Shown piece after piece: positions 20,640 to 52,560 of a stretch of 64,000 nucleotides of DNA. Every line of letters starts with the position of its first letter. Position 1 is the first letter of the stretch. Origin of the DNA: Flavobacterium johnsoniae UW101 (lineage in GTDB: Bacteria > Bacteroidota > Bacteroidia > Flavobacteriales > Flavobacteriaceae); the NCBI RefSeq assembly GCF_000016645.1, contig NC_009441.1, positions 5,828,001-5,892,000 of the forward strand. Direction: 5' to 3'. Made by a program: the position numbers and the translations under genes. Below the pieces are notes generated by a model. The model was not told where the DNA came from, made no database searches, and was given only the letters and a program-made list of their open reading frames with translations.

Positions 20640-21341
20640 TTACCATCCTAGAAATACCATTCCAATACCGCATATTGTCACGACTCCGCCGCCAATTGCA
20701 TGCACATAACGCTCTAGTTTGTCTGTTTTGAAAAAAGAGTAACCATAACACCCTATCAGCACCATGATAAGCATGGTAAGAACTGTAAAGACTGCAAAAA
20801 CAACAATTAAAATGATTACTTCTATTGAAGATCGGCGCACTCCCGAATAAAATAATAACGGTACAAGAGGTTCACTGGGTCCCATAACGAAAATAACAAA
20901 CAAAATCCAGGGTGTAATTTTGATTCGGCTTTGAGGAGCAACTACTTCGCCATGTCTATGTTCATACACATATATATCCTCATCATTATATACCTCAAAA
21001 TGTTTGTGGGGTTTGTTTAGATAAGCGCTTCTTAATCCCCAGATAAAATAAACAAGACCAAACAGCAGTAAACACCAGCCCGAAACATTTCCTCTCACAT
21101 CCTGAAACATAGACAATTTTGATAACTGCCAGCCTACCACAACCCCAATAAGTCCCAGTACAACAGAACTTAATATGTGTCCAAGACCGCAGACAATAGT
21201 AAGCCAGACCGTTTTTGTTATGGACCATTTTCTGGATCTTGATAATACAATGAATGGCAGATAATGATCCGGCCCTGATGCTGTGTGCAGACAGCTTATT
21301 GTAATAGCTGATAATACCAGCGTAGTTAATGTAGTATCCAT
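20640..21341 (-). CDS. NicO/UreH-type nickel permease
   Basis: The 233-residue protein has about six hydrophobic helices. The first contains HTASGPDHYLPF, the His/Asp metal motif of UreH/NicO nickel transporters, and the second has GLGHILSS. A cytoplasmic His-containing loop (HKHFEV, YEHRHGE) lies between helices 3 and 4. It would bring Ni2+ across the inner membrane for urease maturation. Its stop abuts the urea transporter by 12 nt and its start is directly adjacent to the ureD stop, so it belongs to the urease operon. Confidence 0.88.
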   Translation of the reverse strand: MDTTLTTLVLSAITISCLHTASGPDHYLPFIVLSRSRKWSITKTVWLTIVCGLGHILSSVVLGLIGVVVGWQLSKLSMFQDVRGNVSGWCLLLFGLVYFIWGLRSAYLNKPHKHFEVYNDEDIYVYEHRHGEVVAPQSRIKITPWILFVIFVMGPSEPLVPLLFYSGVRRSSIEVIILIVVFAVFTVLTMLIMVLIGCYGYSFFKTDKLERYVHAIGGGVVTICGIGMVFLGW

Positions 21342-22175
21342 TTAGATATAATTTTCAGCAAGATCAGTCACCTGACTTTTAATATTCAATTTCTCTTCTG
21401 CTATCCAAAGCTTACGCTGTATTTTACGAAATGCATTATAAAGCTGTTCTCCGCCATTGCCCAAAACACGTACTATCATGCCATTTGCAAAAGGCTTGGA
21501 AACTCCAAAAGCAATATTTTCTTCAGACTGCAGTTCGGCATAAGCCAATTCAATACACGATTCAACATCCTCAATTCCAGTATTGATATACATAAGAGTT
21601 GCCTGATGTGTAAAACCTTCCATCTGTCCTAAAGTTTGAACATCTGCCAAAAGTGGCTGCAAAAGCACATTATCTTTAACTACCAATTTTCCATTATGAA
21701 ATACTTCGGTTAGATTTTGGAATTTTGAAAAAAGAAATACTTCTCCAGAATGTTTTCGGCCGCAAGTAATGATCTCTCCCACAGTCAGACTGCAATTATC
21801 TGTAAGATTAAAGACATTATATGCTTTAAAAATAGACTGCTCGTGAGGTACAATGGGATGCTGCACATAACTAAAAGTACTTTTGTCTGCTAATGAAACA
21901 TTCATTTGCTGTACAGCACCGTTCTGCATATTAAACAATCTTTGATACGATTGAGACTCTAGCATTAAACGGCTTTCAGATTCGATTTGAATGTTTATAT
22001 CATAATGATCATTATCGAGTATTCCGGGAGAAGAGCTCATCAGCATCAGATAAAGAGAAGGATCTGTTTTGTCTTCTTTTATATCTGCTATGCGAAAAGG
22101 GCGGGTAAAGAAGGCATCTTTTAGATAAGAACGTCCTTCTTTAAATCCACTAACAATATTTAGTTTATTGATCAT
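21342..22175 (-). CDS. ureD: urease accessory protein UreD
   Basis: The 277-residue protein matches UreD: GRSYLKDAFFTRPFRIAD at the N-terminus, LMLMSSSPGILDNDHYDI (the usual SPGLLAGD region), and an SFSYVQHPIVPHEQSIF segment. UreD forms the UreDFG complex that guides nickel into apo-urease. It lies 33 nt after ureG and is contiguous with the nickel permease gene. Sequence is diverged at the C-terminus as usual for this subunit. Confidence 0.9.
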   Translation of the reverse strand: MINKLNIVSGFKEGRSYLKDAFFTRPFRIADIKEDKTDPSLYLMLMSSSPGILDNDHYDINIQIESESRLMLESQSYQRLFNMQNGAVQQMNVSLADKSTFSYVQHPIVPHEQSIFKAYNVFNLTDNCSLTVGEIITCGRKHSGEVFLFSKFQNLTEVFHNGKLVVKDNVLLQPLLADVQTLGQMEGFTHQATLMYINTGIEDVESCIELAYAELQSEENIAFGVSKPFANGMIVRVLGNGGEQLYNAFRKIQRKLWIAEEKLNIKSQVTDLAENYI

Positions 22176-22208
22176 TTAAAATAGTTGAATGTTGTACACT
22201 AAATAGAA

Positions 22209-22847
22209 TTATCGAACCAGCTGCGGTTCTTCTATATTTTCCAGTAAGGCATATTTTTTAATCCAGCCTATAACAACATCAAGTCCTTGAAGACTCATAA
22301 GATTTGTAAAAACAAAAGGCTGTCCGTTTCGCATTTTTCTGGCGTCACGTTCCATAACTCCAAGATCTGCATTTACATAAGGAGCAAGGTCAATTTTATT
22401 AATTACAAGTAAATCTGATCTTGTAATTCCAGGTCCCCCTTTACGTGGAATTTTATCTCCTTCGGCAACATCAATTACAAATATGCTTATATCTGCCAGG
22501 TCAGGACTAAAAGTAGCCGACAGGTTATCACCGCCGCTTTCAATTAATATAATTTCAATTTCAGGAAAGCGTGAAGCCATTTCTTCTACTGCTTCCAGAT
22601 TCATACTTGCATCTTCACGAATGGCAGTGTGCGGGCATCCTCCTGTTTCTACACCAATGATACGCTCTTTAGGAAGCATACTATTTTTAGTAAGGAATTC
22701 AGCATCTTCTTTTGTATAAATATCGTTTGTGATTACTCCAATGCTGTATTCGTTCATCAATTTGCGAGACAAACGTTCAATTAAAGCCGTTTTTCCTGAA
22801 CCAACTGGTCCGGCTATTCCAATTTTGATATAATTTCTTTCTTTCAT
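22209..22847 (-). CDS. ureG: urease accessory GTPase UreG
   Basis: The 212-residue SIMIBI-class GTPase has the P-loop [10 protein letters not shown], the nickel-binding Cys-Pro-His in [30 protein letters not shown], and the guanine motif NKID. UreG supplies GTP energy and nickel for urease activation with UreD, UreE and UreF. There is no His-rich N-terminal tail, so nickel storage must be by other proteins. Confidence 0.97.
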
Positions 22848-22917
22848 TTTTTCTAATTTTTTAATTGTAACACTGAGTTTTTAGCTCTTGGTTACTACTT
22901 TATTTTTATTGTTTTTT

Positions 22918-23604
22918 TTAAGACATATATAATCTTGAATACAATTGCTCATGCTGCATACATCTTACATCCAGACCAATATTGCATAAGCCCACATGAT
23001 TTCGATCAAGCTCAATGGTCTTTCCGGCTACAGTTTCAATTACTTCCTGCATATCATGCAGTATATCTTGTCCATCCAGCTGTCCCAGCGGAACAAGCTT
23101 TACAGCATTGGTTACCATTCCAACAGCTGCATTATATAAGAATGCAAAAAGAGCTTCATACAACGGAATATTTAATAAGCTTGCATAAATTCCAAAAACG
23201 ATACAATAATGTCCTTCGGATTTTTTCTCAAAAATTGCTTTTTCGTATTCGTTAATTATCTCATCTGCAACCTGGCGTTTAAAGATTTTGATAAGTCTTA
23301 CTCCTAGTTTTTGGCTTGCCTGCCTAATTTCACGGGCCGTTTTTAATGCTGCGCACTCATCATCAAGTAAAAACAATGCGCTGGTATTTTTAGACTGTGC
23401 AGCTTCATAAGCGAGTTTTACAAATGCTGCATCATTGTATAATAAATTGTTTGTAAGCATATTGTGAACAAATAACATAGCAGATTCCCTATCTTTTACT
23501 AATCCCTGCTGTACATAAGTTTCCAGTCCGTTTGAGTGTGTGTAACCTCCAATTGGCAATGTTGGATCACTTAGGTGTAATAAGCTGCCTATAAAATTTT
23601 TCAT
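22918..23604 (-). CDS. ureF: urease accessory protein UreF
   Basis: The 228-residue all-helical protein has the UreF hallmarks SDPTLPIGGYTHSNGLETYVQQGLV at the N-terminus and SLLNIPLYEALFAFLYNAA followed by VKLVPLGQLDGQDIL. It serves as the GTPase-activating partner of UreG in the UreDFG complex. It lies between ureE (29 nt) and ureG (70 nt). Confidence 0.95.
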   Translation of the reverse strand: MKNFIGSLLHLSDPTLPIGGYTHSNGLETYVQQGLVKDRESAMLFVHNMLTNNLLYNDAAFVKLAYEAAQSKNTSALFLLDDECAALKTAREIRQASQKLGVRLIKIFKRQVADEIINEYEKAIFEKKSEGHYCIVFGIYASLLNIPLYEALFAFLYNAAVGMVTNAVKLVPLGQLDGQDILHDMQEVIETVAGKTIELDRNHVGLCNIGLDVRCMQHEQLYSRLYMS

Positions 23605-23633
23605 TATATATTTTATTAAAAATAAATCCCTTT

Positions 23634-24131
23634 TTACTTAGCGATATTCATAATTTTAAAAAACAGCGAACTACTTTCTGAATGTCCATGCGGCTGCACA
23701 GTAGAGTTTACTATGTTAGTTAATCTTGTAAAGACTTTTTCTGTATGATAACCGCTCGCCGAAAGCCATTTAAAAATAGGCTCTTCAAAAGGAAGCAATA
23801 CCTCATCATTTTGTATAAACATTGGAAGATGCTTGTTTCCAATCTCGTAGCATACGTTGCCCATTTCAAGCAATGATTTTGGTTTTACCACAATTGCATC
23901 GCAGGGAATAATATCAACTACTATTATTTTTTGATCATCTGCATATATTACATCCTCATGTTTTAACCGCTGTCCTTCTTTCAAAAATTTAATGGCAACT
24001 TCTTGTCCGTTTTTAGATTTTTTCCGCTGAATTCGTTTAGTAGATTCAAACCATTCTATTTCCAGATAATCTACAACACGGTTTGTGATATCAAATTCCC
24101 TAAGGCTTCCTTCAATTTCATTTATAATCAT
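23634..24131 (-). CDS. ureE: urease nickel metallochaperone UreE
   Basis: The 165-residue protein has the UreE N-domain and a C-domain with YEIGNKHLPMFI (the conserved metal-binding His) and ENP-like FEEPIFKWLSASGYHTEKV. The C-terminus has only a short PHGHSES stretch, not the long His tail of Klebsiella UreE, so nickel storage capacity is low. It delivers Ni2+ to UreG. Confidence 0.92.
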   Translation of the reverse strand: MIINEIEGSLREFDITNRVVDYLEIEWFESTKRIQRKKSKNGQEVAIKFLKEGQRLKHEDVIYADDQKIIVVDIIPCDAIVVKPKSLLEMGNVCYEIGNKHLPMFIQNDEVLLPFEEPIFKWLSASGYHTEKVFTRLTNIVNSTVQPHGHSESSSLFFKIMNIAK

Positions 24132-24210
24132 ATCTTCTATTTTAAATCATACATTTTTCAAGCATGCCTTGTTTCTTTTTCATATCATTCTAAAGGTTCA
24201 ATTAGATAGA

Positions 24211-24233
24211 AACTGCTGCCGGATTAACCAGCA
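24211..24233 (-). other. hairpin between ureC and ureE
   Basis: In the 149-nt gap, the minus strand reads GCTGCTGG-TTAAT-CCGGCAGC, an 8-bp stem with one G-T pair and a short weak T-rich stretch after it. It may lower expression of the accessory genes relative to ureABC, or protect the 3' end of the ureABC mRNA. Confidence 0.45.
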
Positions 24234-24280
24234 GCGTTTCTTTCTATTTTAGGCTGAACCGCTATTTTAAACTCTAATAA

Positions 24281-26002
24281 TTAAAATAAGAAATAGCGCT
24301 GTGCCATTGGAAGATGTGTTGCTGGTTCGCAGATGATTTTCTCACCATCAACACGTACTTCATAATTTTCTGGATTCACAGTAATTTCAGGAGTTTTATC
24401 ATTATGGATCAGATGTTTTTTTGAAATGTTTCTGCAGCCTGTTACTGGTAAAATCATTTTTTCTAATCCATACTCTTCTGCAATATTGTTTTTAATAGAA
24501 GCCTGAGAAACAAAAGTGGCACATGTTTTAGACAGTGCTTTTCCAAAAGCTCCAAACATATTACGATAAAGAACTGGCTGCGGCGTAGGTATAGAAGCAT
24601 TTGGATCTCCCATACGAGCTGCAATAATCATCCCTCCTTTAATAATAATTTCAGGTTTTGTACCAAACAGCATTGGTTTCCATAATACAAGGTCTGCCAT
24701 TTTTCCTACCTCAATAGATCCCACATACTGTGAAATACCATGTGCAATAGCAGGGTTAATTGTATATTTAGCCACGTAACGTTTTGCACGGAAATTGTCA
24801 TTTTTGTTTCCTTTATCTTCTGCAAGGTCACCGCGTTGTTTTCTCATTTTGTCAGCAGTCTGCCAAGTACGGGTAACCACCTCACCTACACGTCCCATAG
24901 CTTGTGAGTCTGAACTCATGATACTAAACACTCCCATATCATGCAGGATATCTTCTGCTGCAATGGTTTCCGGACGAATACGAGAATCTGCAAATGAAAC
25001 GTCTTCAGGAATATTTTTGCTTAAGTGATGGCATACCATCAACATATCTAAGTGTTCGTCGATTGTATTTACAGTATAAGGACGGGTTGGATTTGTTGAA
25101 GCCGGCAATACATTAGGATACATTGCAGCTTTAATAATATCCGGAGCGTGACCTCCTCCAGCACCTTCTGTATGAAAAGTATGAATCACACGTCCGTTAA
25201 TTGCATTCATTGTATCTTCAAGGAAACCTGCTTCGTTAAGAGTATCAGTATGGATTGCCACCTGAACATCATATTTATCAGCAACTTTTAATGAAGCATC
25301 AATTACTGCAGGCGAAGCACCCCAATCCTCATGAATTTTTAAACCTAAAGCACCAGCCTCAATCTGCTCATCCAATGGCGCTTCGGTTGAACAGTTTCCT
25401 TTTCCAAAAAATCCAAGATTCATAGGGAATGCTTCTGCAGCTTGCAGCATTTTTTCAATATACCATTTACCAGGTGTAATAGTAGTAGCATTTGTACCAT
25501 CAGCAGGTCCAGTACCACCGCCAATCATTGTGGTTACACCACTATATAAAGCAGTTTCAATTTGCTGAGGGCTGATAAAATGAATATGGGTATCAATTCC
25601 ACCAGCAGTAACAATTAAATTTTCACCACCGTGAGCTTCTGTACTCGCACCTATAATCATGTGAGGTTCAACACCATCCATTGTATCTGGATTACCAGCT
25701 TTACCAATTCCTGCTATTTTACCATCTTTAATACCAATATCTGCTTTTACAATACCCCAGTGGTCAATAATAGTAGCATTGGTAATTACAAGATCTAAAA
25801 CTCCCTGATCGCGCGTAGCAGTACTAGACTGAGCCATACCGTCTCTGATTGTTTTTCCCCCGCCAAATTTATTTTCATCACCATAAACGGTAAAATCTTT
25901 TTCTATCTCAACAATGATATCTGTGTCGGCCAGTCTAATTTTATCTCCTTTTGTAGGACCATACATGCTGGCATATTTCAGCTTATTTATTTTCAGGCTC
26001 AT
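24281..26002 (-). CDS. ureC: urease alpha subunit UreC
   Basis: The 573-residue catalytic subunit hydrolyses urea to ammonia and carbamate at a di-nickel site. All key residues are visible: H139 and H141 (GGIDTHIHF), the carbamylated K222 ([12 protein letters not shown]), H251 ([10 protein letters not shown]), H277 ([12 protein letters not shown]), the flap Cys324 and catalytic H325 (MVCHHL), and D365 ([12 protein letters not shown]). Length is normal. It starts 2 nt after ureB. Confidence 0.99.
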
Positions 26003-26004
26003 AA

Positions 26005-26373
26005 TTATTTATTTTTAAAGTTTTCAGTTTTCAGTTTTGCCAAACTATGTTGTTTGTTTATTTCTAGTGTAGTATCTCCGTTCACGATATTGTTGATACC
26101 AAATGCACGTCTTGCTCCACTAAATGCAACTAATTCTACTTCTTTTTCTTCGCCGGGTTCAAAACGAACTGCTGTTCCGGCGGCAATGTTAAGACGCATT
26201 CCAAAAGCTTCACTGCGATCGAAACTCATCATACGATTGATTTCAAAAAAATGGCAGTGAGATCCTACTTGTATTGGACGGTCACCTGTGTTGATTACTT
26301 TTATTTTAGTTGTTTTTCGGTCAACATTACACTCAATGTCTCCCTTACTGATAAAATATTCTCCCGGAATCAT
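26005..26373 (-). CDS. ureB: urease beta subunit UreB
   Basis: The 122-residue structural subunit starts [16 protein letters not shown] and contains [18 protein letters not shown] and [15 protein letters not shown], all typical of UreB. It is separate from UreA, as in three-subunit bacterial ureases. It lies 18 nt after ureA and 2 nt before ureC. Confidence 0.98.
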
Positions 26374-26391
26374 AATTTTAATTTTTTGAGT

Positions 26392-26694
26392 TTAACGAAT
26401 AGGACTGTGAACTGTAACTAATTTAGTTCCGTCAGGAAATGTTGCCTCGATTTGAACATCATGTATCATCTCAGCAATACCTTCCATAACATCATCTCTG
26501 GTCAGCAGGGTAGCTCCATAATTCATCAGTTCTGCTACTGATTTTCCGTCTCTTGCTGCCTCCAGTAAATGACTGCTGATATAAGCAATCGTTTCTGGGT
26601 AATTTAATTTAAGACCTCTTGCCTTTCTTTTTGCCGCTAACTCTCCGGCTAGATGCAATAGCAGTTTTTCACTCTCTCTTGGTGTAAGATGCAT
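26392..26694 (-). CDS. ureA: urease gamma subunit UreA
   Basis: The 100-residue subunit has the UreA pattern: [36 protein letters not shown], and [17 protein letters not shown]. It is the first urease gene of the block; the 190-nt region before it (26695-26886) is A+T-rich and should contain the promoter, but no convincing -7 box was found. Confidence 0.98.
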
Positions 26695-35492: not shown

Positions 35493-36602
35493 CTACTCAC
35501 ATGGCTTGCCCTTTAAATATTTATTAAACATATAATTTGTTACCGGTCTTAAAGATACATTTGTTTCTGGATGTCTTCCGTTGCCATTATCATTAAAAAA
35601 ATCAACACCATTTGCTGTTTTCCCATACCAAACAAAAGCTTCTCCATTTTTCTTAAAACAAGTTGTAGTGTCACAAGCATTTAATTTTCTAAAATCTAAT
35701 AGGCTTTCATCAAGTGGAATTATTACACAAGAACCTGGTGTTATTTTAGAAGAACAATCTACAATTTCATAATGATCACCTGTCCACTGCATACAATGTT
35801 TTTTAAAGAAGGCAAAATAAACTACTCCACCAATTGAACAAAAAATTAAAATAATAACCGCAGCTGTTTTTCCTAATCGTTTTAGGAAATTTTCAAATAA
35901 AATCTGTCTAATTCTCCTAAAAAGCTTTTCCCTTTTTGGTTTAGATTCCTGTGCTTTAGATTTATCTGTTTCATCACAATTACTCTCGGTAGGATTTGTT
36001 TCAGATTGAGAAGTCTGTGTAATTTCATATTCTTTTATATTAGCACCATAACTGTCTTTTGCTATAAATGGGAGAGGCACGTATGTTTTTTCTTTTTCTG
36101 TTTCCTCGGTTTTTAAATTAGTTTTTTTTTTAATTTCGACCTCATCAATAAAACCATTAGAAGAAATTTCAGGCTTGTAATGTTTGTTTTTTCTTAGTTC
36201 TTCTATCAATTTCAAATTCTGTGGATCAATTTCTTTTCTAAACTTATTAAAAGGTCTAGGTTGAAAATCTACCAAAATTGCTGCTAATTCAACCGTACTA
36301 ATTTTAGCTGTTTCTCTTTCCGCTTTAAAAAAAGCACCTACCTTTTTAAACTTATCTGTGTATTGCTGTGAAGTATCTACCTCTCTTGGGATAAAATCAG
36401 CTTTAAAAAAGTTACGATATACTGCAAGGTCATCGACTGTAGGTTCTAAATTGAAAATTTCCCAGCATAAATCTCTTAAAGCTGCTTGTGAAGGATTGCT
36501 TAAGTAATCAGAATATTTTCCTTCATTTTTTTCAACTCTATATTTCTCTCGAATCGCTTCTTTATAGTCACTTTGAATATCATCTTGAGTAATTTTTCTC
36601 AT
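35493..36602 (-). CDS. hypothetical protein with one membrane helix
   Basis: The 369-residue protein has an N-terminal helical region (about 1-130; LRDLCWEIFNLEPTVDDLAVYRNFF) of unknown family, a charged low-complexity linker rich in Glu, Lys, Ser and Thr (about 160-240), and one hydrophobic helix (about 248-270). A C-terminal 100-residue domain with four Cys follows (KHCMQW, IVDCSS, NACDTTTC). The single helix suggests the Cys domain is outside the cytoplasm. It is divergent from the lipoprotein/TPR-kinase locus across a 354-nt regulatory gap. No function assigned. Confidence 0.65.
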   Translation of the reverse strand: MRKITQDDIQSDYKEAIREKYRVEKNEGKYSDYLSNPSQAALRDLCWEIFNLEPTVDDLAVYRNFFKADFIPREVDTSQQYTDKFKKVGAFFKAERETAKISTVELAAILVDFQPRPFNKFRKEIDPQNLKLIEELRKNKHYKPEISSNGFIDEVEIKKKTNLKTEETEKEKTYVPLPFIAKDSYGANIKEYEITQTSQSETNPTESNCDETDKSKAQESKPKREKLFRRIRQILFENFLKRLGKTAAVIILIFCSIGGVVYFAFFKKHCMQWTGDHYEIVDCSSKITPGSCVIIPLDESLLDFRKLNACDTTTCFKKNGEAFVWYGKTANGVDFFNDNGNGRHPETNVSLRPVTNYMFNKYLKGKPCE

Positions 36603-36662
36603 AAGCTATTAGGATTTTCAGGATTTATTATCGGTTTTTTCAAGTTTTTATCGGACGTCATC

Positions 36663-36723
36663 GGAGAATCAGGAAATCCCGGAAATCCGTATCAATACAG
36701 GCTCTAAACCGTTGTTACTTTGC
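36663..36723 (+). promoter_or_regulatory. tandem GGAAAT repeats and -7 box of lipoprotein/kinase locus 1
   Basis: Three 9-nt units start at 36663, 36672 and 36681 (GGAGAATCA, GGAAATCCC, GGAAATCCG). They are followed 34 nt later by TTACTTTGC (36715-36723), one mismatch from TAnnTTTGC. The same arrangement precedes locus 2 (49653-49734). Phased repeats just upstream of a promoter suggest an activator that binds side by side on one face of the helix. Confidence 0.6.
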
Positions 36724-36727
36724 TTCA

Positions 36728-36930
36728 ACAAAATTAGTTAACGTTTTGATCTGCAGGTCAAAAACAAATGTACAAAACTAGTTCAATCAACAAGTGTGGA
36801 AAACCGTAAAACGGAGTTTATCCGGGAAGTATAAATAATGTTTTATAGTTCTACGCACTTCACTTCCCAAACAAATTTGGTATTGCTCCTAACACAAAAT
36901 CCGGAAAAGTTCCGGCAGGCAATACCCAAT
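36728..36930 (+). promoter_or_regulatory. candidate structured 5' leader RNA, copy 1
   Basis: Helices that can form: P0 36744-36751/36756-36763 with a TGCA loop; P1 36792-36798/36854-36860; P2 36806-36812/36840-36846; a small hairpin 36812-36815/36821-36824; and P4 36879-36886/36919-36926 enclosing 36901-36906/36910-36915. GGAAGT at 36825-36830 can pair with ACTTCC (36862-36867) as a pseudoknot. Copy 2 at 49740-49932 keeps every helix with altered bases, including a paired A-T to G-C change in P2. The leader ends 30 nt before the small lipoprotein ATG. No match to a known RNA class is claimed. Confidence 0.55.
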
Positions 36931-36956
36931 GTTTAATCCTTTAATAATTAAAAAAA

Positions 36957-37154
36957 ATGAGAACATTATATCTATTGGGAGCGTGCGCGCTGTTGTCAAC
37001 TACATTATTTTCTTGTACTGCTGACGAATTCGAAAATGAAACAAAAAAGACTGAGGTAAAAAAAGAGGTAATTCCTAATGGCGGTCAAGCCAGCGATCCA
37101 CCTCCTCCAGGACCAGATGATGATCCAATTAATGTTAAACCACCAAAAAAATAA
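36957..37154 (+). CDS. small Pro-rich lipoprotein, copy 1
   Basis: The 65-residue product has a lipoprotein signal (lipobox LFSC, Cys20), an acidic/Lys-rich middle (ADEFENETKKTEVKK) and a Pro-rich tail (DPPPPGPDDDP). It matches the 60-residue protein at 49959-50141 in signal, charged segment and poly-Pro tail. Both are followed by a TPR sensor kinase gene, so it may be a surface or periplasmic ligand, or a partner of the kinase's TPR domain. Function inferred from pairing only. Confidence 0.7.
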   Translation: MRTLYLLGACALLSTTLFSCTADEFENETKKTEVKKEVIPNGGQASDPPPPGPDDDPINVKPPKK

Positions 37155-37200
37155 TAAATAAAGCCGCAATATTAAATTAATTACTAAATATTGTTAAATT

Positions 37201-37239
37201 CGGGGAAAGTAACTTTTATGCTGCGTTCCCCGTTTTTTT
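37201..37239 (+). terminator. terminator-like hairpin with the kinase start codon in its loop, copy 1
   Basis: CGGGGAA (37201-37207) pairs with TTCCCCG (37226-37232), followed by seven T (37233-37239). The ATG of the TPR kinase (37218) lies in the 18-nt loop, and the codons for Ser-Pro-Phe-Phe make up the 3' arm and T-tract. The same hairpin is present at the second kinase gene (50180-50219). It would end most transcripts after the lipoprotein gene unless ribosomes or a factor open it. Confidence 0.65.
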
Positions 37240-38924
37240 ATGTAGTTATTATACTCTCTTTTATTTCTTGCAAAGAGAAAACACCTGCATTGATTAAGCC
37301 CAATATCTCCAAAAAAACGGCTAAACTTATGCAGGAAAAAGCACTGAATGAACTTGAAAAAAGTAATTACAACAGCTCATTTTATTATTTTAATAAATCA
37401 AAAGTAATATTTGAAGCCGCAAAAGACAGCTCAAATATAGTTTTCAACTTACTTCAAATGGCCACCATTCAACAAATAAATGGTGATTATTATGGCAGTA
37501 AAGAGACTTTAACCGAAGCATTACCTTTCTTTAAAAAAAACGATGACTATAAAGCTCCAGTTAATAATCTGTTTGGTATTGCAGACAAAGAACTTTCACT
37601 TTATGATGATGCCGTATTTTATTACAATGAAGCTTTAAAAGATGCTAAAGATGAGGCATCAAGACAATCTCCGTTAAACAATATTGCCGTTATTTACATT
37701 AAGCAGAAAAAATACGATAAGGCAATTAAAATTTTAGAATCCATTTTAGACACAAAAGCACTTGATGAATTTGTAAAAAGTAAATCGAGAGTTATGGACA
37801 ATCTTGGATTTGCTTATTTTAAAAAAGGAATTAAGGATAAAAGTCTTCAGTTTCTAAATGAAGCATTAAAATTAAGAATACAAGCTGATGACTCTTATGG
37901 AAGTATTGGAAGTTACCTACATCTGGCAGAATTTTACTCAGAAACCGATCTCCAAAAATCAAATAAATATGCTGAAAAGGCCTATCAAACAGCCAGTAAA
38001 TTAAACAGCGTAGATGAACGTCTAAAATCGCTCGCAATTTTAATTTCTAATGGATCAGGTACAATATATTCAAAAAAATATATAGCAATAAACGACAGCA
38101 TCACAAATATCCGCAACAACTTTAAAAACAAATTCGCAAAAATTAAATACGATTCGAAAAAGGAAAAAGATGAAAACCAAAAACTTCGACTAGAAAAAGC
38201 TGAAAATTTAGTAGCGCTGAAAGAAGCCGAAAAAGATAAAGTAATCTTATTTGCCACCATAATTGCCACTTTAATTTCTCTTGTGTCATTAGGTCTTTAT
38301 CTAAGAAAACGTTACAAACACAAAACTCGACTTGTTGCTATAAAAACAGCATATAACACCGAAACCCGAATTGCCAAAGACATTCATGACGGATTAGCAA
38401 ATGATGTTTTTCATGCGATAACATATACACAAACTCAGCCCTTAACCAACGACAATAACAAAGAAAACCTGTTACAAAAACTCGATGATATTTATTCACG
38501 AGTACGCGGAATTTCTCGTGAAAATAATGATATCAATACCGGACCTAATTACCCCAATTATTTAAAGGAAATGCTTTCTACCTATAATAGTCCTCAAACA
38601 AACGTTATTATTAATAGTATCGAAAAAATAAATTGGGATTCGGTTGAAGATTTAAAAAAGATTGCCATTCAGCGTGTATTACATGAATTAATGGTTAATA
38701 TGAAAAAACACAGCGAAGCTTCTATCGTTGTTATAAAATTTGAAAGCAGTTCAAATACCTTATTTATAAATTACTCGGATAATGGAAAAGGCTGCGAAAA
38801 ATCAAAAATTATCAAAAATGGTCTGCAAAATATGGAAATCCGTATTCTAGCCATAAAGGGAACTATTACTTTTGAAACTGAACCAGATAAAGGTTTTAAA
38901 GTAAAAATAACAATGCCTAAATAA
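37218..38924 (+). CDS. TPR-containing sensor histidine kinase, copy 1
   Basis: I chose ATG 37218 (568 residues, MLRSPFFY...) because the paralogue at 50198 starts with the same residues; an upstream ATG at 37191 would add nine. An N-terminal lipobox-like FISCKEK is followed by TPR-like helical repeats (about 40-280), a coiled-coil, a membrane helix (about 340-362), a HisKA_3-type segment ETRIAKDIHDGLANDV (His about 390) and HATPase_c (DNGKGCEKSK, NGLQNM). The TPR part would be periplasmic, the kinase cytoplasmic. It is 6 nt before a LuxR-type response regulator, its obvious partner. Confidence 0.88.
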   Translation: MLRSPFFYVVIILSFISCKEKTPALIKPNISKKTAKLMQEKALNELEKSNYNSSFYYFNKSKVIFEAAKDSSNIVFNLLQMATIQQINGDYYGSKETLTEALPFFKKNDDYKAPVNNLFGIADKELSLYDDAVFYYNEALKDAKDEASRQSPLNNIAVIYIKQKKYDKAIKILESILDTKALDEFVKSKSRVMDNLGFAYFKKGIKDKSLQFLNEALKLRIQADDSYGSIGSYLHLAEFYSETDLQKSNKYAEKAYQTASKLNSVDERLKSLAILISNGSGTIYSKKYIAINDSITNIRNNFKNKFAKIKYDSKKEKDENQKLRLEKAENLVALKEAEKDKVILFATIIATLISLVSLGLYLRKRYKHKTRLVAIKTAYNTETRIAKDIHDGLANDVFHAITYTQTQPLTNDNNKENLLQKLDDIYSRVRGISRENNDINTGPNYPNYLKEMLSTYNSPQTNVIINSIEKINWDSVEDLKKIAIQRVLHELMVNMKKHSEASIVVIKFESSSNTLFINYSDNGKGCEKSKIIKNGLQNMEIRILAIKGTITFETEPDKGFKVKITMPK

Positions 38925-38930
38925 AAGCCT

Positions 38931-39599
38931 ATGTTTAAAAAAGTAATAATTGCTGAAGATATCGACGCAATGAATTTAGGAATTCAACAAGTTTTAAAAG
39001 ATTTAAATATTGTCAATTTTCAACATTCCAGATTTTGCGATGATGCATTTCTAAAAATACGCGCTGCAATTCAGCAAAATGAACCTTATGATTTATTAAT
39101 CAGCGATCTTTCTTTTAAAACAGATCATCGCAAATCTGACATTACCAGTGGAGACGAACTGGTTCAAAAAGTTCGAGAACTGCAGTCGGATATTAAAATC
39201 ATTGCTTACTCGGTAGAAGATAAAAGTTACCGCATTAAATCACTTTTTGAAGATGCCGAAATAGATGCTTTTGTATTAAAAGGTTTAAATAGTATCGAAG
39301 AGTTAAAAAAAGCGATTAGTATTATTTCAACTTCCGATCAAAAATTTATTTCTCCGGAAGTTGCTTCGGCATTACTGGAAAAAAACAATTTCGAAATTGA
39401 CGATGTCGATATTAAAATTCTAAAATATTTATCAGCCGGAACGTCGCAGGATGAAATTATCGAAATTTTTAAAAACAGCGATGTAAAACCAAACAGTAAA
39501 AGTGCCATGGAAAAAAGATTAGCAAAACTCAAAGACTTTTTTAAAGCCAATAATACCGTTCATTTGGTTTCGATTACAAAAGATATGGGAATTATTTAA
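38931..39599 (+). CDS. LuxR/NarL-like response regulator
   Basis: The 222-residue protein has an N-terminal receiver (EDIDAMN, acidic E9/D10; phospho-acceptor Asp59 in YDLLISDLSF; IIAYS; FVLKGL) and a C-terminal helical region from about 155 (DDVDIKILKYLSAGTSQDEIIEIF), a diverged helix-turn-helix of LuxR type. It is 6 nt downstream of the TPR kinase. It is a candidate binder of the TAYGG-N4-CCRTA palindrome found directly downstream at 39671 and at two other promoters, since LuxR-type dimers usually bind such TAC/GTA-type palindromes (inference). Confidence 0.85.
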   Translation: MFKKVIIAEDIDAMNLGIQQVLKDLNIVNFQHSRFCDDAFLKIRAAIQQNEPYDLLISDLSFKTDHRKSDITSGDELVQKVRELQSDIKIIAYSVEDKSYRIKSLFEDAEIDAFVLKGLNSIEELKKAISIISTSDQKFISPEVASALLEKNNFEIDDVDIKILKYLSAGTSQDEIIEIFKNSDVKPNSKSAMEKRLAKLKDFFKANNTVHLVSITKDMGII

Positions 39600-39620: not shown

Positions 39621-39644
39621 AAAGCTCCTTCGGGAGCTTTTTTT
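39621..39644 (+). terminator. terminator with UUCG tetraloop
   Basis: AAAGCTCC and GGAGCTTT close a TTCG loop (39621-39640), followed by a T-tract to 39644, 21 nt after the response-regulator stop. Confidence 0.95.
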
Positions 39645-49734: not shown

Positions 49735-49739
49735 ACCAA

Positions 49740-49932
49740 GAAATTAGTTCAAGTTTTGTCTGCAGACTAAAACAATCGTTAAAACTAGTTCTAATTAAGA
49801 GTGTAAAAAACCGTAAGACCGAGTTTATTCGGGAAGTATAAATAACGTCTTACTGTTCTGCACACTGCACTTCCCAAAATCAATTTGGTATTGTCACAAA
49901 AGCCTCTGGGTCATTCCGGACAGCAATACCTA
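49740..49932 (+). promoter_or_regulatory. candidate structured 5' leader RNA, copy 2
   Basis: Helices as in copy 1: P0 49753-49760/49765-49773 (same TGCA loop, one bulge); P1 49800-49804/49862-49866; P2 49813-49819 (GTAAGAC)/49847-49853 (GTCTTAC); hairpin 49819-49822/49829-49832; possible pseudoknot 49832-49837 with 49869-49874; P4 49887-49893/49924-49930 around 49905-49910/49915-49920. Single strands GAGTTTAT, GGGAAGTATAAATAA and CACTTCCC are nearly identical between copies. The leader ends 26 nt before the small lipoprotein ATG. Confidence 0.55.
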
Positions 49933-49958
49933 TGTCTAATTTCTTAAAATAAATCAAA

Positions 49959-50141
49959 ATGAAAAAACTAATACTATTTATCGCTTTTGCGTTATTGTTC
50001 ACGATATTTTCTTGTACTCCTGATGAGTATGAGACTACAACAAAAAAAAATGAAAAAGTTGGTACACCATCGGCTTACGAGCCCAATGGTCCTGGTGATA
50101 CTCCAGGTGGAGCACCGCCTCCACCTCCACCAGCTCCATGA
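49959..50141 (+). CDS. small Pro-rich lipoprotein, copy 2
   Basis: The 60-residue product has lipobox IFSC (Cys19), TPDEYETTTKKNEK and a Pro-rich tail (PGGAPPPPPPAP). It corresponds to the 65-residue product at 36957-37154 in layout and position before a TPR kinase. Role unknown; the two may be signals or accessory parts read by the kinase pair. Confidence 0.7.
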   Translation: MKKLILFIAFALLFTIFSCTPDEYETTTKKNEKVGTPSAYEPNGPGDTPGGAPPPPPPAP

Positions 50142-50179
50142 TAAAAAAATATTTTTAGTATCAAATTAATTACTATTTT

Positions 50180-50219
50180 CGGGGAAAGTAAATTTAAATG
50201 TTACGATCCCCGTTTTTTT
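50180..50219 (+). terminator. terminator-like hairpin with the kinase start codon in its loop, copy 2
   Basis: CGGGGA (50180-50185) pairs with TCCCCG (50207-50212), followed by seven T (50213-50219). The ATG at 50198 is in the loop. Arms and T-tract are conserved with copy 1 while the loop differs. Confidence 0.65.
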
Positions 50220-51952
50220 ATTTTTTTATTTTGCTTTTTCTTTTTTCCTGCAAAGAAAAAGAAACCATTAACCTTAAAAATAAATCTATACAAAAGGAGG
50301 CTTTTGCTTTGCGAAATAAAGCAATTGAAAGTTTTGATCAACAGAAATTCAATACTTCTTTTTATCAGTTTAATAAATCAAAAGCTCTTTATGAAACCAT
50401 AAAAGACAGTGCTAATATTTCCTATATACTTATTCGAATTGCAGAAATTCATCAGATTAATGGTGATTATTATGGCAGTAAAGAGATTGTCACCGAAGCA
50501 TTACCATATATTAAAAAAAAGGGAGATTACACTGCCAGCATTAATACCAAACTTGGAGTTGCAGACAAAGAACTTTCTCTTTATGATGATGCCATTTATT
50601 ACTACAAACTAGCAGCAAGTGAATATACTGACCCTCTCTTAAAGCAAGCACCTATACAAAATATTGCAGCTGTTTACATTCACCAAAAAAAGTACGATAA
50701 AGCTATCCTTATATTAGATTCTCTTTTACAATCTTTTTCCAGTAAAGATTTAAAGGAGAAAGTTAAAACAAGTGATGAATCTGTACTACTTGATAATTTG
50801 GGTTATGCTTATTTTAAAAACGGAGACGAAGTTAAAGGACTCAATTTGATGAATGAAGGTCTGCAAAACAGAATTGAAAATAATGATACTTACGGTAGCA
50901 TAGAAAGCTATCTGCACTTTGCCGATTATTACTCTAAAAAAGATATTCAAAAATCGGATGAAAATGCTCTTTTAGCCTACAAAGCTGCTACAAAACTGAA
51001 CAGCATTGACGAAAGATTAGAAGCACTGCAAATACTAATTTCAAACGACAATACTTCTAATACTCCAAAGTATACTCAGAAGTACTTTACATTAAATGAC
51101 AGCATCATCAAGGTTCGAAATAATTTTAAAAACAAGTCTGCTAAAATTAAATATGATGCCAAAAAAGAAAAAGATGAAAACGAAAAACTTCGTTTAGAAA
51201 AAGCAGAAAATCAATTGTCACTTCAAAGAGCCAAGTATCTGAGAATTGTTTTTGCGATTGTTTTTGTTTTTTTAGTCATTCTAATAGTGATCTTAATACG
51301 CTATTATAAAAATAAAAACAAAGCCATCGAATTTAAAACTTCGTACAACACAGAAACCCGAATTGCTAAAAAAATCCACGATGAATTAGCAAACGATGTT
51401 TTCCAGGTAATTGCTTTTACTGAATCTCAGCCCTTAGCTGCAGAAAATACCAAGGAAAATCTGCTGCAAAAATTAGATGATATTTACAGCCGCGTAAGAG
51501 GAATTTCCAGAGAGAATAATAGTATAGATACCGGAGCAAATTTTACACGCACTATAAAAGAAATGCTCTCAGCTTATAACACACGTGAAAGAAATATCAT
51601 GGCAACCAATTTAGAAAACATACATTGGGAAAACATTGACGATATTAAAAAGATTACCATCAGCCGAATTCTACAGGAATTAATGGTAAATATGAAAAAA
51701 CACAGTGAAGCAAAAATTGTAGTCATAAAATTTGAAAGTGATCATAAATCAATTTCAATAAATTATAAGGACAATGGCAAAGGCTGTGATAAAAACATGA
51801 TCGTGCAAAACGGTCTTCAAAACATGACAAACCGCATCCTGTCTGCTAATGGAACTATTGATATTGACACAGAACCCGGTAAAGGATTTAAAGTGAAAAT
51901 ATCCATGCCTCAGCAAACTCATATTAAAGTAAAAGAAAAGTTTGCCTCTTAG
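50198..51952 (+). CDS. TPR-containing sensor histidine kinase, copy 2 (orphan)
   Basis: The 584-residue paralogue of the kinase at 37218 has the same plan: MLRSPFFY start with lipobox-like FLFSCKEK, TPR-like repeats (about 35-290), coiled-coil, membrane helix (about 347-368), ETRIAKKIHDELANDV (His394) and HATPase_c (DNGKGCDKNM, NGLQNM). Unlike copy 1 it has no response regulator gene after it; the next gene is convergent. It may signal to the regulator at 38931-39599 or to one outside the window. Confidence 0.88.
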   Translation: MLRSPFFYFFILLFLFSCKEKETINLKNKSIQKEAFALRNKAIESFDQQKFNTSFYQFNKSKALYETIKDSANISYILIRIAEIHQINGDYYGSKEIVTEALPYIKKKGDYTASINTKLGVADKELSLYDDAIYYYKLAASEYTDPLLKQAPIQNIAAVYIHQKKYDKAILILDSLLQSFSSKDLKEKVKTSDESVLLDNLGYAYFKNGDEVKGLNLMNEGLQNRIENNDTYGSIESYLHFADYYSKKDIQKSDENALLAYKAATKLNSIDERLEALQILISNDNTSNTPKYTQKYFTLNDSIIKVRNNFKNKSAKIKYDAKKEKDENEKLRLEKAENQLSLQRAKYLRIVFAIVFVFLVILIVILIRYYKNKNKAIEFKTSYNTETRIAKKIHDELANDVFQVIAFTESQPLAAENTKENLLQKLDDIYSRVRGISRENNSIDTGANFTRTIKEMLSAYNTRERNIMATNLENIHWENIDDIKKITISRILQELMVNMKKHSEAKIVVIKFESDHKSISINYKDNGKGCDKNMIVQNGLQNMTNRILSANGTIDIDTEPGKGFKVKISMPQQTHIKVKEKFAS

Positions 51953-52026: not shown

Positions 52027-52560
52027 TTATAATGTTTCGTTTAAAACTGCAACCGCTTCTTTCCAGTTGTTTACCCTTAAATGATGCGTTTGGTTTATAT
52101 TGTGAAATGCAGTAAACATAATAGGTTTACCCATACAGTAATCTAGGTTTTTGCAGTGATCGTCTATTAAATAATCAGTATTGATGATTCTTTTACTGCC
52201 GCATAAAACAATGTTTTCCCATTTAATAAAAGGAAAATGTTCGCCAAGCCAGGCTACTTTTTCAGCTAATGAAATTGGGAATTCTGTTGCAGCAGAAACT
52301 ATAAAAATCTCAAAATTCTTTTGCAGTTCACGCACACTTTCAACAGCATCTGGCATTACAGGCAGTGTTCTAAAAAAATTATCCTTGTTTAGAATTTCAA
52401 ATAACAATTCTCTTTCCTTAAAAGCTTCCTCTTCACTTAATCCCTGAATACCTTCTTTTGTTAAATTGGTTCCGTAGGCTTTATTGTAATGGTCTATTAT
52501 CTGCGATTCGACATCAGCGAGAACACCATCCATATCTATTGCAATTGTTTTCTTTTTCAT
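52027..52560 (-). CDS. 5'(3')-deoxyribonucleotidase-like HAD phosphatase (NT5C type)
   Basis: The 177-residue protein starts KKKTIAIDMDGVLADVES, the HAD motif I DxDGVLAD of the NT5C family, with motif II in FIVSAATEFP and the motif III/IV region at SKRIINTDYLIDDH. These enzymes dephosphorylate (deoxy)nucleoside monophosphates. It is divergent from a DeoR regulator across an operator-rich 88-nt gap, so the regulator probably controls it. Confidence 0.85.
   Translation of the reverse strand: MKKKTIAIDMDGVLADVESQIIDHYNKAYGTNLTKEGIQGLSEEEAFKERELLFEILNKDNFFRTLPVMPDAVESVRELQKNFEIFIVSAATEFPISLAEKVAWLGEHFPFIKWENIVLCGSKRIINTDYLIDDHCKNLDYCMGKPIMFTAFHNINQTHHLRVNNWKEAVAVLNETL

Follow-up and report, generated by a model that had tools for sequence, protein, structure and literature searches.

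Two sensor kinase genes of Flavobacterium johnsoniae UW101 begin inside a sequence that resembles an intrinsic terminator, which raises the question of what the hairpin is for and how a gene that starts within it is transcribed. Both copies are located in the window analysed here, a continuous stretch of 64,000 nucleotides (NC_009441.1, positions 5,828,001 to 5,892,000), whose numbering is used below; the features described are on the plus strand unless indicated otherwise. The order of elements is the same in the two copies: a structured leader, a gene for a lipoprotein of 60-65 aa with a Pro-rich end, the hairpin and the gene of a TPR histidine kinase that carries a lipoprotein-type signal peptide. 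The original prediction proposed that the hairpin acts as a switch: kinase mRNA would arise only if a ribosome, a protein or an alternative fold blocked it.

In copy 1, a candidate promoter box TACTTTGC (36716..36723), predicted to serve the lipoprotein transcription unit, precedes the structured leader RNA (36726..36956, of which the core 36726-36868 was aligned) and the small lipoprotein gene (36957..37154), an ORF of 65 aa (MRTLYLLGACALLSTTLFSC...PPKK) for which a Pfam search returned no match. The hairpin consists of the 5' arm CGGGGAA (37201..37207), an 18-nt loop (37208-37225) and the 3' arm TTCCCCG (37226..37232), followed by a run of seven T (37233..37239). The first two bases of the 5' arm are also the two final bases of the predicted kinase -7 promoter box TAAATTCG (37195..37202), and the kinase ATG, at 37218, is inside the loop, just as had been claimed. 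The accompanying claim that the first codons constitute the 3' arm and the T-tract is correct for the end of codon 3 to codon 5 (arm) and for codons 6-7 (TTT TTT, Phe-Phe) with base 1 of codon 8 (T-run), but Leu2 lies in the loop. The kinase (37218..38924) has 568 aa, with a lipoprotein signal peptide judged by eye. Six nucleotides past its stop begins a response regulator gene (38931..39599), whose Response_reg match (E 3.4e-6) is slightly under the Pfam cut-off; the two genes are likely to form one operon, and the terminator scan placed an ordinary terminator-like hairpin 3' of the regulator (39621..39640).

Copy 2 repeats the geometry with a different loop (50180-50219), in agreement with the original prediction. 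Its leader (49737..49958, core 49737-49875) and 60 aa lipoprotein gene (49959..50141) are followed by the predicted -7 box TATTTTCG (50174..50181, predicted +1 at 50186/50187), the 5' arm CGGGGA (50180..50185), the ATG (50198) and the 3' arm TCCCCG with its T7 run (50207..50219; arm 50207-50212, T7 50213-50219). The loop is 21 nt long, and an inner GTAA/TTAC helix reduces it to 9 nt. The start of the 584 aa kinase (50198..51952) is fixed by an in-frame TAA immediately 5' of the ATG. Since this stop abuts the copy 2 ATG and the alignment of kinase N-termini begins at the ATG, a TTG at 37191 was dropped as the copy 1 start. Unlike copy 1, the copy 2 kinase has no adjoining response regulator, the next gene (52027-52560) being on the opposite strand. 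Elsewhere in the window, a urease gene cluster with accessory genes, named by eye from translations, occupies 20640-26694 on the minus strand.

A chance hairpin was rejected by dinucleotide shuffles and by pattern counts in the window and the genome. The 81-nt copy 1 fold has a predicted energy of -16 kcal/mol, equalled by 4 of 200 dinucleotide shuffles (z -2.56). The pattern GGGGA-N6-30-TCCCC-N-TTTT matches twice in the 64-kb window against a shuffle mean of 0.01, and TTCGGGGAAAG-N6-20-TCCCC-N-TTTT matches twice in the whole genome of 6,096,872 bases, both times at the kinase starts, with 0 matches to the reversed-pattern control. Intrinsic terminators usually have shorter loops than the 18-21 nt seen here, and the window terminator scan, limited to loops of 3-8 nt, did not pick up the copy 1 hairpin.

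Relatives were collected in three sets: the 48 among 60 genomes that matched at E<=0.001, at least 80 named loci titled Flavobacterium or Flavobacteriaceae, and 182 of 299 genomes of the genus matching at E<=1e-60. The named loci include L052, the kinase in F. johnsoniae strain CI04. Of 174 distinct start regions extracted, one with a short frame was removed, and the remaining 173 gave 115 representatives at 75% identity; counts by gene context use 169 rows, with four left out as mis-called starts or as having less than 300 nt upstream. The sequences are related, so these counts are not independent trials. A common anatomy emerges: the lipoprotein stop, about 28-59 nt, TAHHTTYG, the 5' arm, the ATG in the loop or the 5' arm, and the 3' arm with the T-run in the first codons. 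Two hairpin classes can be distinguished. The loop class has the layout box-GGGAAAG-~8 nt-ATG-xxx-CGN-TCC-CCG-TTT-TTT and the peptide MxRSPFF; the stem class has box-GGAA-ATG-loop-CATTTCCCG-ATTTTT and the peptide MxxKKxHFPIF, with CGGGAAATG pairing to CATTTCCCG and the ATG within the 5' arm. The expectation that relatives would keep a GGGGA/TCCCC stem and a T-run was borne out, as 90 of the 92 MxRSP starts retain the stem; the case named as refuting, a peptide kept with its pairing lost, occurs only marginally, at L141 and L164, with one mismatch each.

TAHHTTYG is located exactly 4 nt 5' of the ATG in 43 of the 115 representatives, 12-20 nt in 56 and at neither distance in 16, that is, it is found at these distances in 99/115 (when more variant letters are allowed, 45, 57 and 13, respectively). 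Among 46 other window genes used as a control, one has the motif at those distances and none at exactly 4 nt. PMC6847099 describes F. johnsoniae promoters as TAHHTTTG, 4-5 nt from the start site, with no clear -33 box; likewise, no -33 box is visible upstream of the kinase boxes. With the two middle box bases left free, no box has a G there, as in the published motif; 86 of 100 boxes have C at the seventh position, where the consensus TAHHTTTG has T, and so are one step off it. The box is not a by-product of the hairpin arm, since it is kept in loci that lost the hairpin (L012, L013, L038, L106, L121, L196 and L202, the last base being changed in L038). An own box in copy 1 (37195-37202) and the persistence of the box without the hairpin speak against the proposed switch.

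Applying the published spacing (PMC6847099) to copy 1 predicts a kinase mRNA start at 37207/37208, past nearly all of the 5' arm. The gap between box and ATG is 15 and 16 nt in the window copies, predicting leadered mRNAs, whereas leaderless mRNA is predicted for the 43 representatives with exactly 4 nt. In F. psychrophilum leaderless mRNAs form a minority of 5.5% (PMC9723704), and the short-leader mRNAs of Bacteroides thetaiotaomicron include those of sensor kinases (PMC7366714). At L034 (genome 34000-45500) there is a tandem array of three related kinases and no small lipoprotein; the first kinase of the array has TATTTTTG-N4-ATG and is predicted to be leaderless.

Taken together with the gene context discussed below, we consider it fairly probable that the hairpin terminates the lipoprotein gene, has merged with the kinase start and the predicted kinase promoter, and forms only in RNA running in from upstream; the kinase is then predicted to be made from its own promoter only, not by read-through. 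A polymerase coming from the lipoprotein gene would transcribe both arms and stop at the T-run, and any read-through RNA would still hold the kinase start within the hairpin. A polymerase starting from the kinase box would initiate 4-5 nt past it and produce an mRNA without most or all of the 5' arm, in which the hairpin therefore could not form; given the position of the box at the 5' arm, the hairpin is expected in run-in RNA only. The kinase would be translated from a leader of about 10-12 nt in the window type, or leaderlessly in those relatives whose box lies exactly 4 nt from the ATG. The net effect would be two mutually insulated transcripts that share a single compact junction, one for the lipoprotein and another, under separate control, for kinase and regulator. 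In folding models the mean unpaired probability of the start rises from 0.46 in run-in RNA to 0.56 in own mRNA for copy 1 and from 0.48 to 0.53 for copy 2, but the A of AUG becomes less accessible, with 0.61 instead of 1.00 in copy 1 and 0.10 instead of 0.82 in copy 2. These models thus predict no clear gain in start accessibility for the own mRNA, and the explanation rests on the loss of the hairpin instead.

If the hairpin terminates the lipoprotein transcript, it can be expected to accompany the lipoprotein gene. Under a strict criterion (a contiguous stem of at least 5 pairs, at least 3 of them G-C), 119 of the 169 usable loci have both, 3 have the lipoprotein gene without the hairpin, 16 the hairpin without an intact lipoprotein gene and 31 neither (120, 2, 14 and 33 with a looser score), so the hairpin is present at 119 of the 122 loci with a lipoprotein gene upstream. 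The three others are L141, which retains the lipoprotein gene and the peptide with one mismatch in the stem, and L022 and L024, which belong to a different family within the order and in which an ordinary terminator and the kinase start follow in series. Twelve of the 16 have a decayed remnant or an atypical gene by eye (L005, L020, L108, L115, L122, L150, L157, L160, L165, L172, L178 and L197). No remnant was seen by eye at L200. At L036, L102 and L188 the hairpin kinase is located behind another gene having its own terminator; the stems of L036 and L188 are marginal, and L102 is a real exception, a tandem kinase that keeps the full hairpin behind another kinase and an ordinary terminator. 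L089, in a comparable tandem position, has lost the hairpin. Loci with neither element mostly lie behind other genes: a tandem kinase, a gene of 144 aa or one that by eye resembles rplT. Ordinary terminators occur at several of them. The hairpin is thus absent mainly at loci without a small lipoprotein gene upstream.

No other terminator was found before the hairpin in 68 of the 71 hairpin representatives with a called lipoprotein ORF, and in the remaining three the called ORF is 348-472 nt away. Ordinary terminators are frequent at hairpin-less loci: among 32 weak representatives the script scored 13 with such a terminator, including one whose start was mis-called. A tree built from 82 kinases shows about five changes of the hairpin. 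In independent pairs the lipoprotein gene changes the same way in 3.0 of 5 on average and the opposite way in 0.2, values with which a sign test cannot become significant. If remnants and atypical genes are scored as present, a recoding chosen after seeing the data, the values become 4.2 of 5 and 0.0.

At L005, L157, L160, L165, L172, L178 and L197 the lipoprotein genes look decayed by eye, and the kinase hairpin and box remain. At L032, about 130 nt 5' of the lipoprotein start, there is a further hairpin start (GGGGAAAG..ATG..TCCCCG), whose frame ends after nine codons and which is apparently what remains of a kinase copy since lost.

The lipoprotein gene is preceded by a conserved leader some 230 nt long. 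Its consensus has a TTACTTTGC box at the 5' side, and a degenerate form of the box matched 67 of 74 leaders; both this box and that of copy 1 fit the SM5 motif TAnnTTGY of F. psychrophilum (PMC9723704). The alignment contains 68 cores of the 74 leaders found in the representatives. Five helices, one closing a pseudoknot, are paired in 88.2% of cells over these 68 cores (helix 4 in 68.5%). Slid versions of the structure paired in 33-50%, a comparison that favours the structure partly because the helices were picked by eye from the same sequences and 68 of the 74 leaders were admitted to the alignment. The covariation score is 0.180 against 0.106 for shuffled alignments, none of 500 shuffles being as high, and 119 cells are changed on both sides, compared to a shuffled mean of 46.2 and 13-65 in slid versions. 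RNAalifold retained the pseudoknot stem only, without covariation; this stem (GGGAAGT/ACTTCCC in copy 1) hardly varies, and its support is conservation, not covariation.

Rfam searches with window positions 36600-37500 and with the leaders of L002, L009, L016, L099, L111 and L014 gave no match at E<=1. Under strict filters, by which weak matches are lost, a covariance model of the leader found 36 places in 26 of 100 genomes and no place outside the genus among these 100; the F. johnsoniae genome has two, both in the window. All 36 are immediately upstream of a kinase of the TPR sensor-kinase family. Box and hairpin were seen downstream in 27 of the 30 fetched loci; by their coordinates L227 and L239 correspond to L016 and L004, both with a hairpin, and L235 corresponds to L019, where the hairpin is absent. 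The six places not fetched match by coordinates kinases found in the genome searches. Among representatives, the leader is present at 70 of 73 loci with lipoprotein gene and hairpin, 2 of 10 with the hairpin only, 0 of 2 with the lipoprotein gene only and 0 of 27 with neither. Conserved, probably pseudoknotted, unmatched in Rfam and located only beside this gene pair in the 100 genomes, the leader is a candidate new RNA family.

This co-occurrence of leader, lipoprotein gene and hairpin would also be expected if the kinase were co-transcribed with the lipoprotein gene and a signal opened the terminator, possibly with the structured leader as antiterminator, which would be a refined form of the switch in the original prediction. 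PMC9723704 attributes a class of transcribed regions in F. psychrophilum to partial termination at predicted terminators, consistent with such regulated read-through. However, the kinase has its own promoter-like box, the box stays where the lipoprotein gene is absent and the hairpin usually lost, and no conserved alternative partner of either arm was noticed by eye in the alignments. The distance from the lipoprotein stop to the 5' arm, 28-59 nt in all measured cases but one (17 nt), also argues against it, and we regard regulated read-through as unlikely. The original prediction named a ribosome among the agents that might block the hairpin; blocking by a ribosome at the lipoprotein stop is disfavoured by the same distance: the footprint of a ribosome terminating 28-59 nt away is too small to mask the hairpin. 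Slightly less likely still is that leader, small lipoprotein and fused hairpin form one device, in which the leader as antiterminator or sensor would gate the terminator, the RNA would set the ratio of lipoprotein to kinase, and a promoter hidden at the 5' arm would supply a constant amount of hairpin-free kinase mRNA.

Returning to the proposed fused terminator, its sequence can be separated from the peptide it encodes by reshuffling synonymous codons, with amino acids fixed, and comparing the folds. Reshuffling weakens the fold at p<=0.05 in 68 of 73 loci with lipoprotein gene and hairpin (median z -3.2), in 10 of 10 with the hairpin only, in 0 of 2 with the lipoprotein gene only and in 3 of 27 with neither (median z 0.0). 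Among the 55 loop-class representatives, Ser4 is TCC in 53/53, Pro5 is CCG in 48/53 and Phe6/7 are TTT in 76/77, the backgrounds, taken from codons 16-100 of the 173 genes, being 14%, 8% and 79%. High conservation of the arms leaves partner-swap tests with little power to discriminate: the broad-zone version (own at least 17 in 83/115, swaps 51.7%; loop class 50/55 vs 86.3%) is uninformative, and the anchored one (own at least 17 in 79/102, cross-class swaps 49%) modestly informative. The stems are G+C-rich, L020 having only 3 G-C pairs, and a T-run lies directly 3' of the arm in 70 of 73 lipoprotein+hairpin representatives, both as in an intrinsic terminator. At least five T occur in the 8 nt past the arm in 49/49 loop-class (mean 6.47) and 21/24 stem-class representatives (mean 5.71), compared to 35/49 (mean 5.27) and 8/24 (mean 4.17) in the following 8 nt. 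This stretch is generally T-rich because of signal-peptide codons, and hairpin-less loci have at least five T in 8 at the same codon offset in 9/14 (mean 4.86), so the synonymous TTT bias is a cleaner sign of T-run selection than the T counts. Sequence comparison thus supports selection on a terminator-like hairpin in which early kinase codons supply the 3' arm and the T-run.

These data bear on the idea that the hairpin chiefly hides the kinase start codon in a polycistronic mRNA, without termination. The ATG does lie in the loop or, in the stem class, in the 5' arm, and structure near the start lowers initiation in F. johnsoniae (PMC6847099). A translational lock does not account for selection on the T-run, seen in the TTT bias and in the excess of T directly past the arm, nor for the scarcity of other terminators after the lipoprotein gene at hairpin loci; besides, the AUG of the loop class is largely unpaired in the predicted hairpin. 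We consider it improbable.

Across the 173 start regions the stem is usually kept where both its sequence and the encoded peptide differ. Altered stems still pair at L157 (TCGGGGGA/TCCCCCGA), at L014 (AGGGGAATGAA/TTTATTCCCTT, using G-T pairing) and at L020 (TTCGAAGA/TCTTCGAA), and by eye L130 and L139 keep the pairing with other letters. Such differences among the arms speak against an operator, that is, an inverted repeat at the -7 box bound by a dimeric regulator such as the cognate response regulator. The symmetry of the repeat, its overlap with the promoter box and the adjoining kinase and regulator genes of copy 1 would suit this role, but the loop length varies from 7 to 29 nt by the script, 15 and 19-21 nt being the usual values, and the repeat goes with the upstream gene, which leaves a DNA operator little credence. 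That the hairpin is a mere by-product of the N-terminal peptide MLRSPFF, conserved in the loop class, is very improbable, since peptide-only conservation is rejected by synonymous codons fixed to the pairing form and the weaker folds of reshuffled ones, and the stem class pairs with a different peptide.

No published work on the junction, the leader RNA or the lipoprotein-kinase pair was found among the matches listed in literature searches, but parts of the arrangement have known counterparts. In E. coli frd-ampC, the attenuator also terminates the upstream operon, and the ampC mRNA itself bears it. Part of the upstream gene lies within the downstream promoter there, which also has an attenuator (PMC11796351). 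By contrast, the kinase box is located at the 5' arm, so that an mRNA free of the hairpin is expected, and the 3' arm belongs to the coding sequence. Bacteroidetes sigma-A promoters (PMC6847099) have a similar -7 motif, from which most kinase boxes are one step away, and the 4-5 nt spacing assumed in the predictions above; in the kinase box the last two bases, together with the spacer, also form a hairpin arm. Attenuators and riboswitch expression platforms likewise place a terminator-like hairpin between an upstream transcript and a coding gene; the kinase junction differs in the promoter-like box at the hairpin, and no conserved antiterminator pairing was noticed by eye. EAR and put are structured leaders acting in processive antitermination. 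The kinase loci resemble them in that a conserved leader, probably with a pseudoknot, and the probable terminator downstream belong to one unit, but this leader matches no Rfam family and its role is putative.

A terminator made of a promoter spacer and coding codons can evade annotation, since terminators and starts are usually scored separately. Here three signals share about 40 bases, in a design that predicts folding of the hairpin in run-in RNA only. The finding connects a widespread family of Flavobacterium sensor kinases with a small lipoprotein and with a structured leader RNA that matches no Rfam family, and this link may serve as an entry point to the signals sensed by these kinases.
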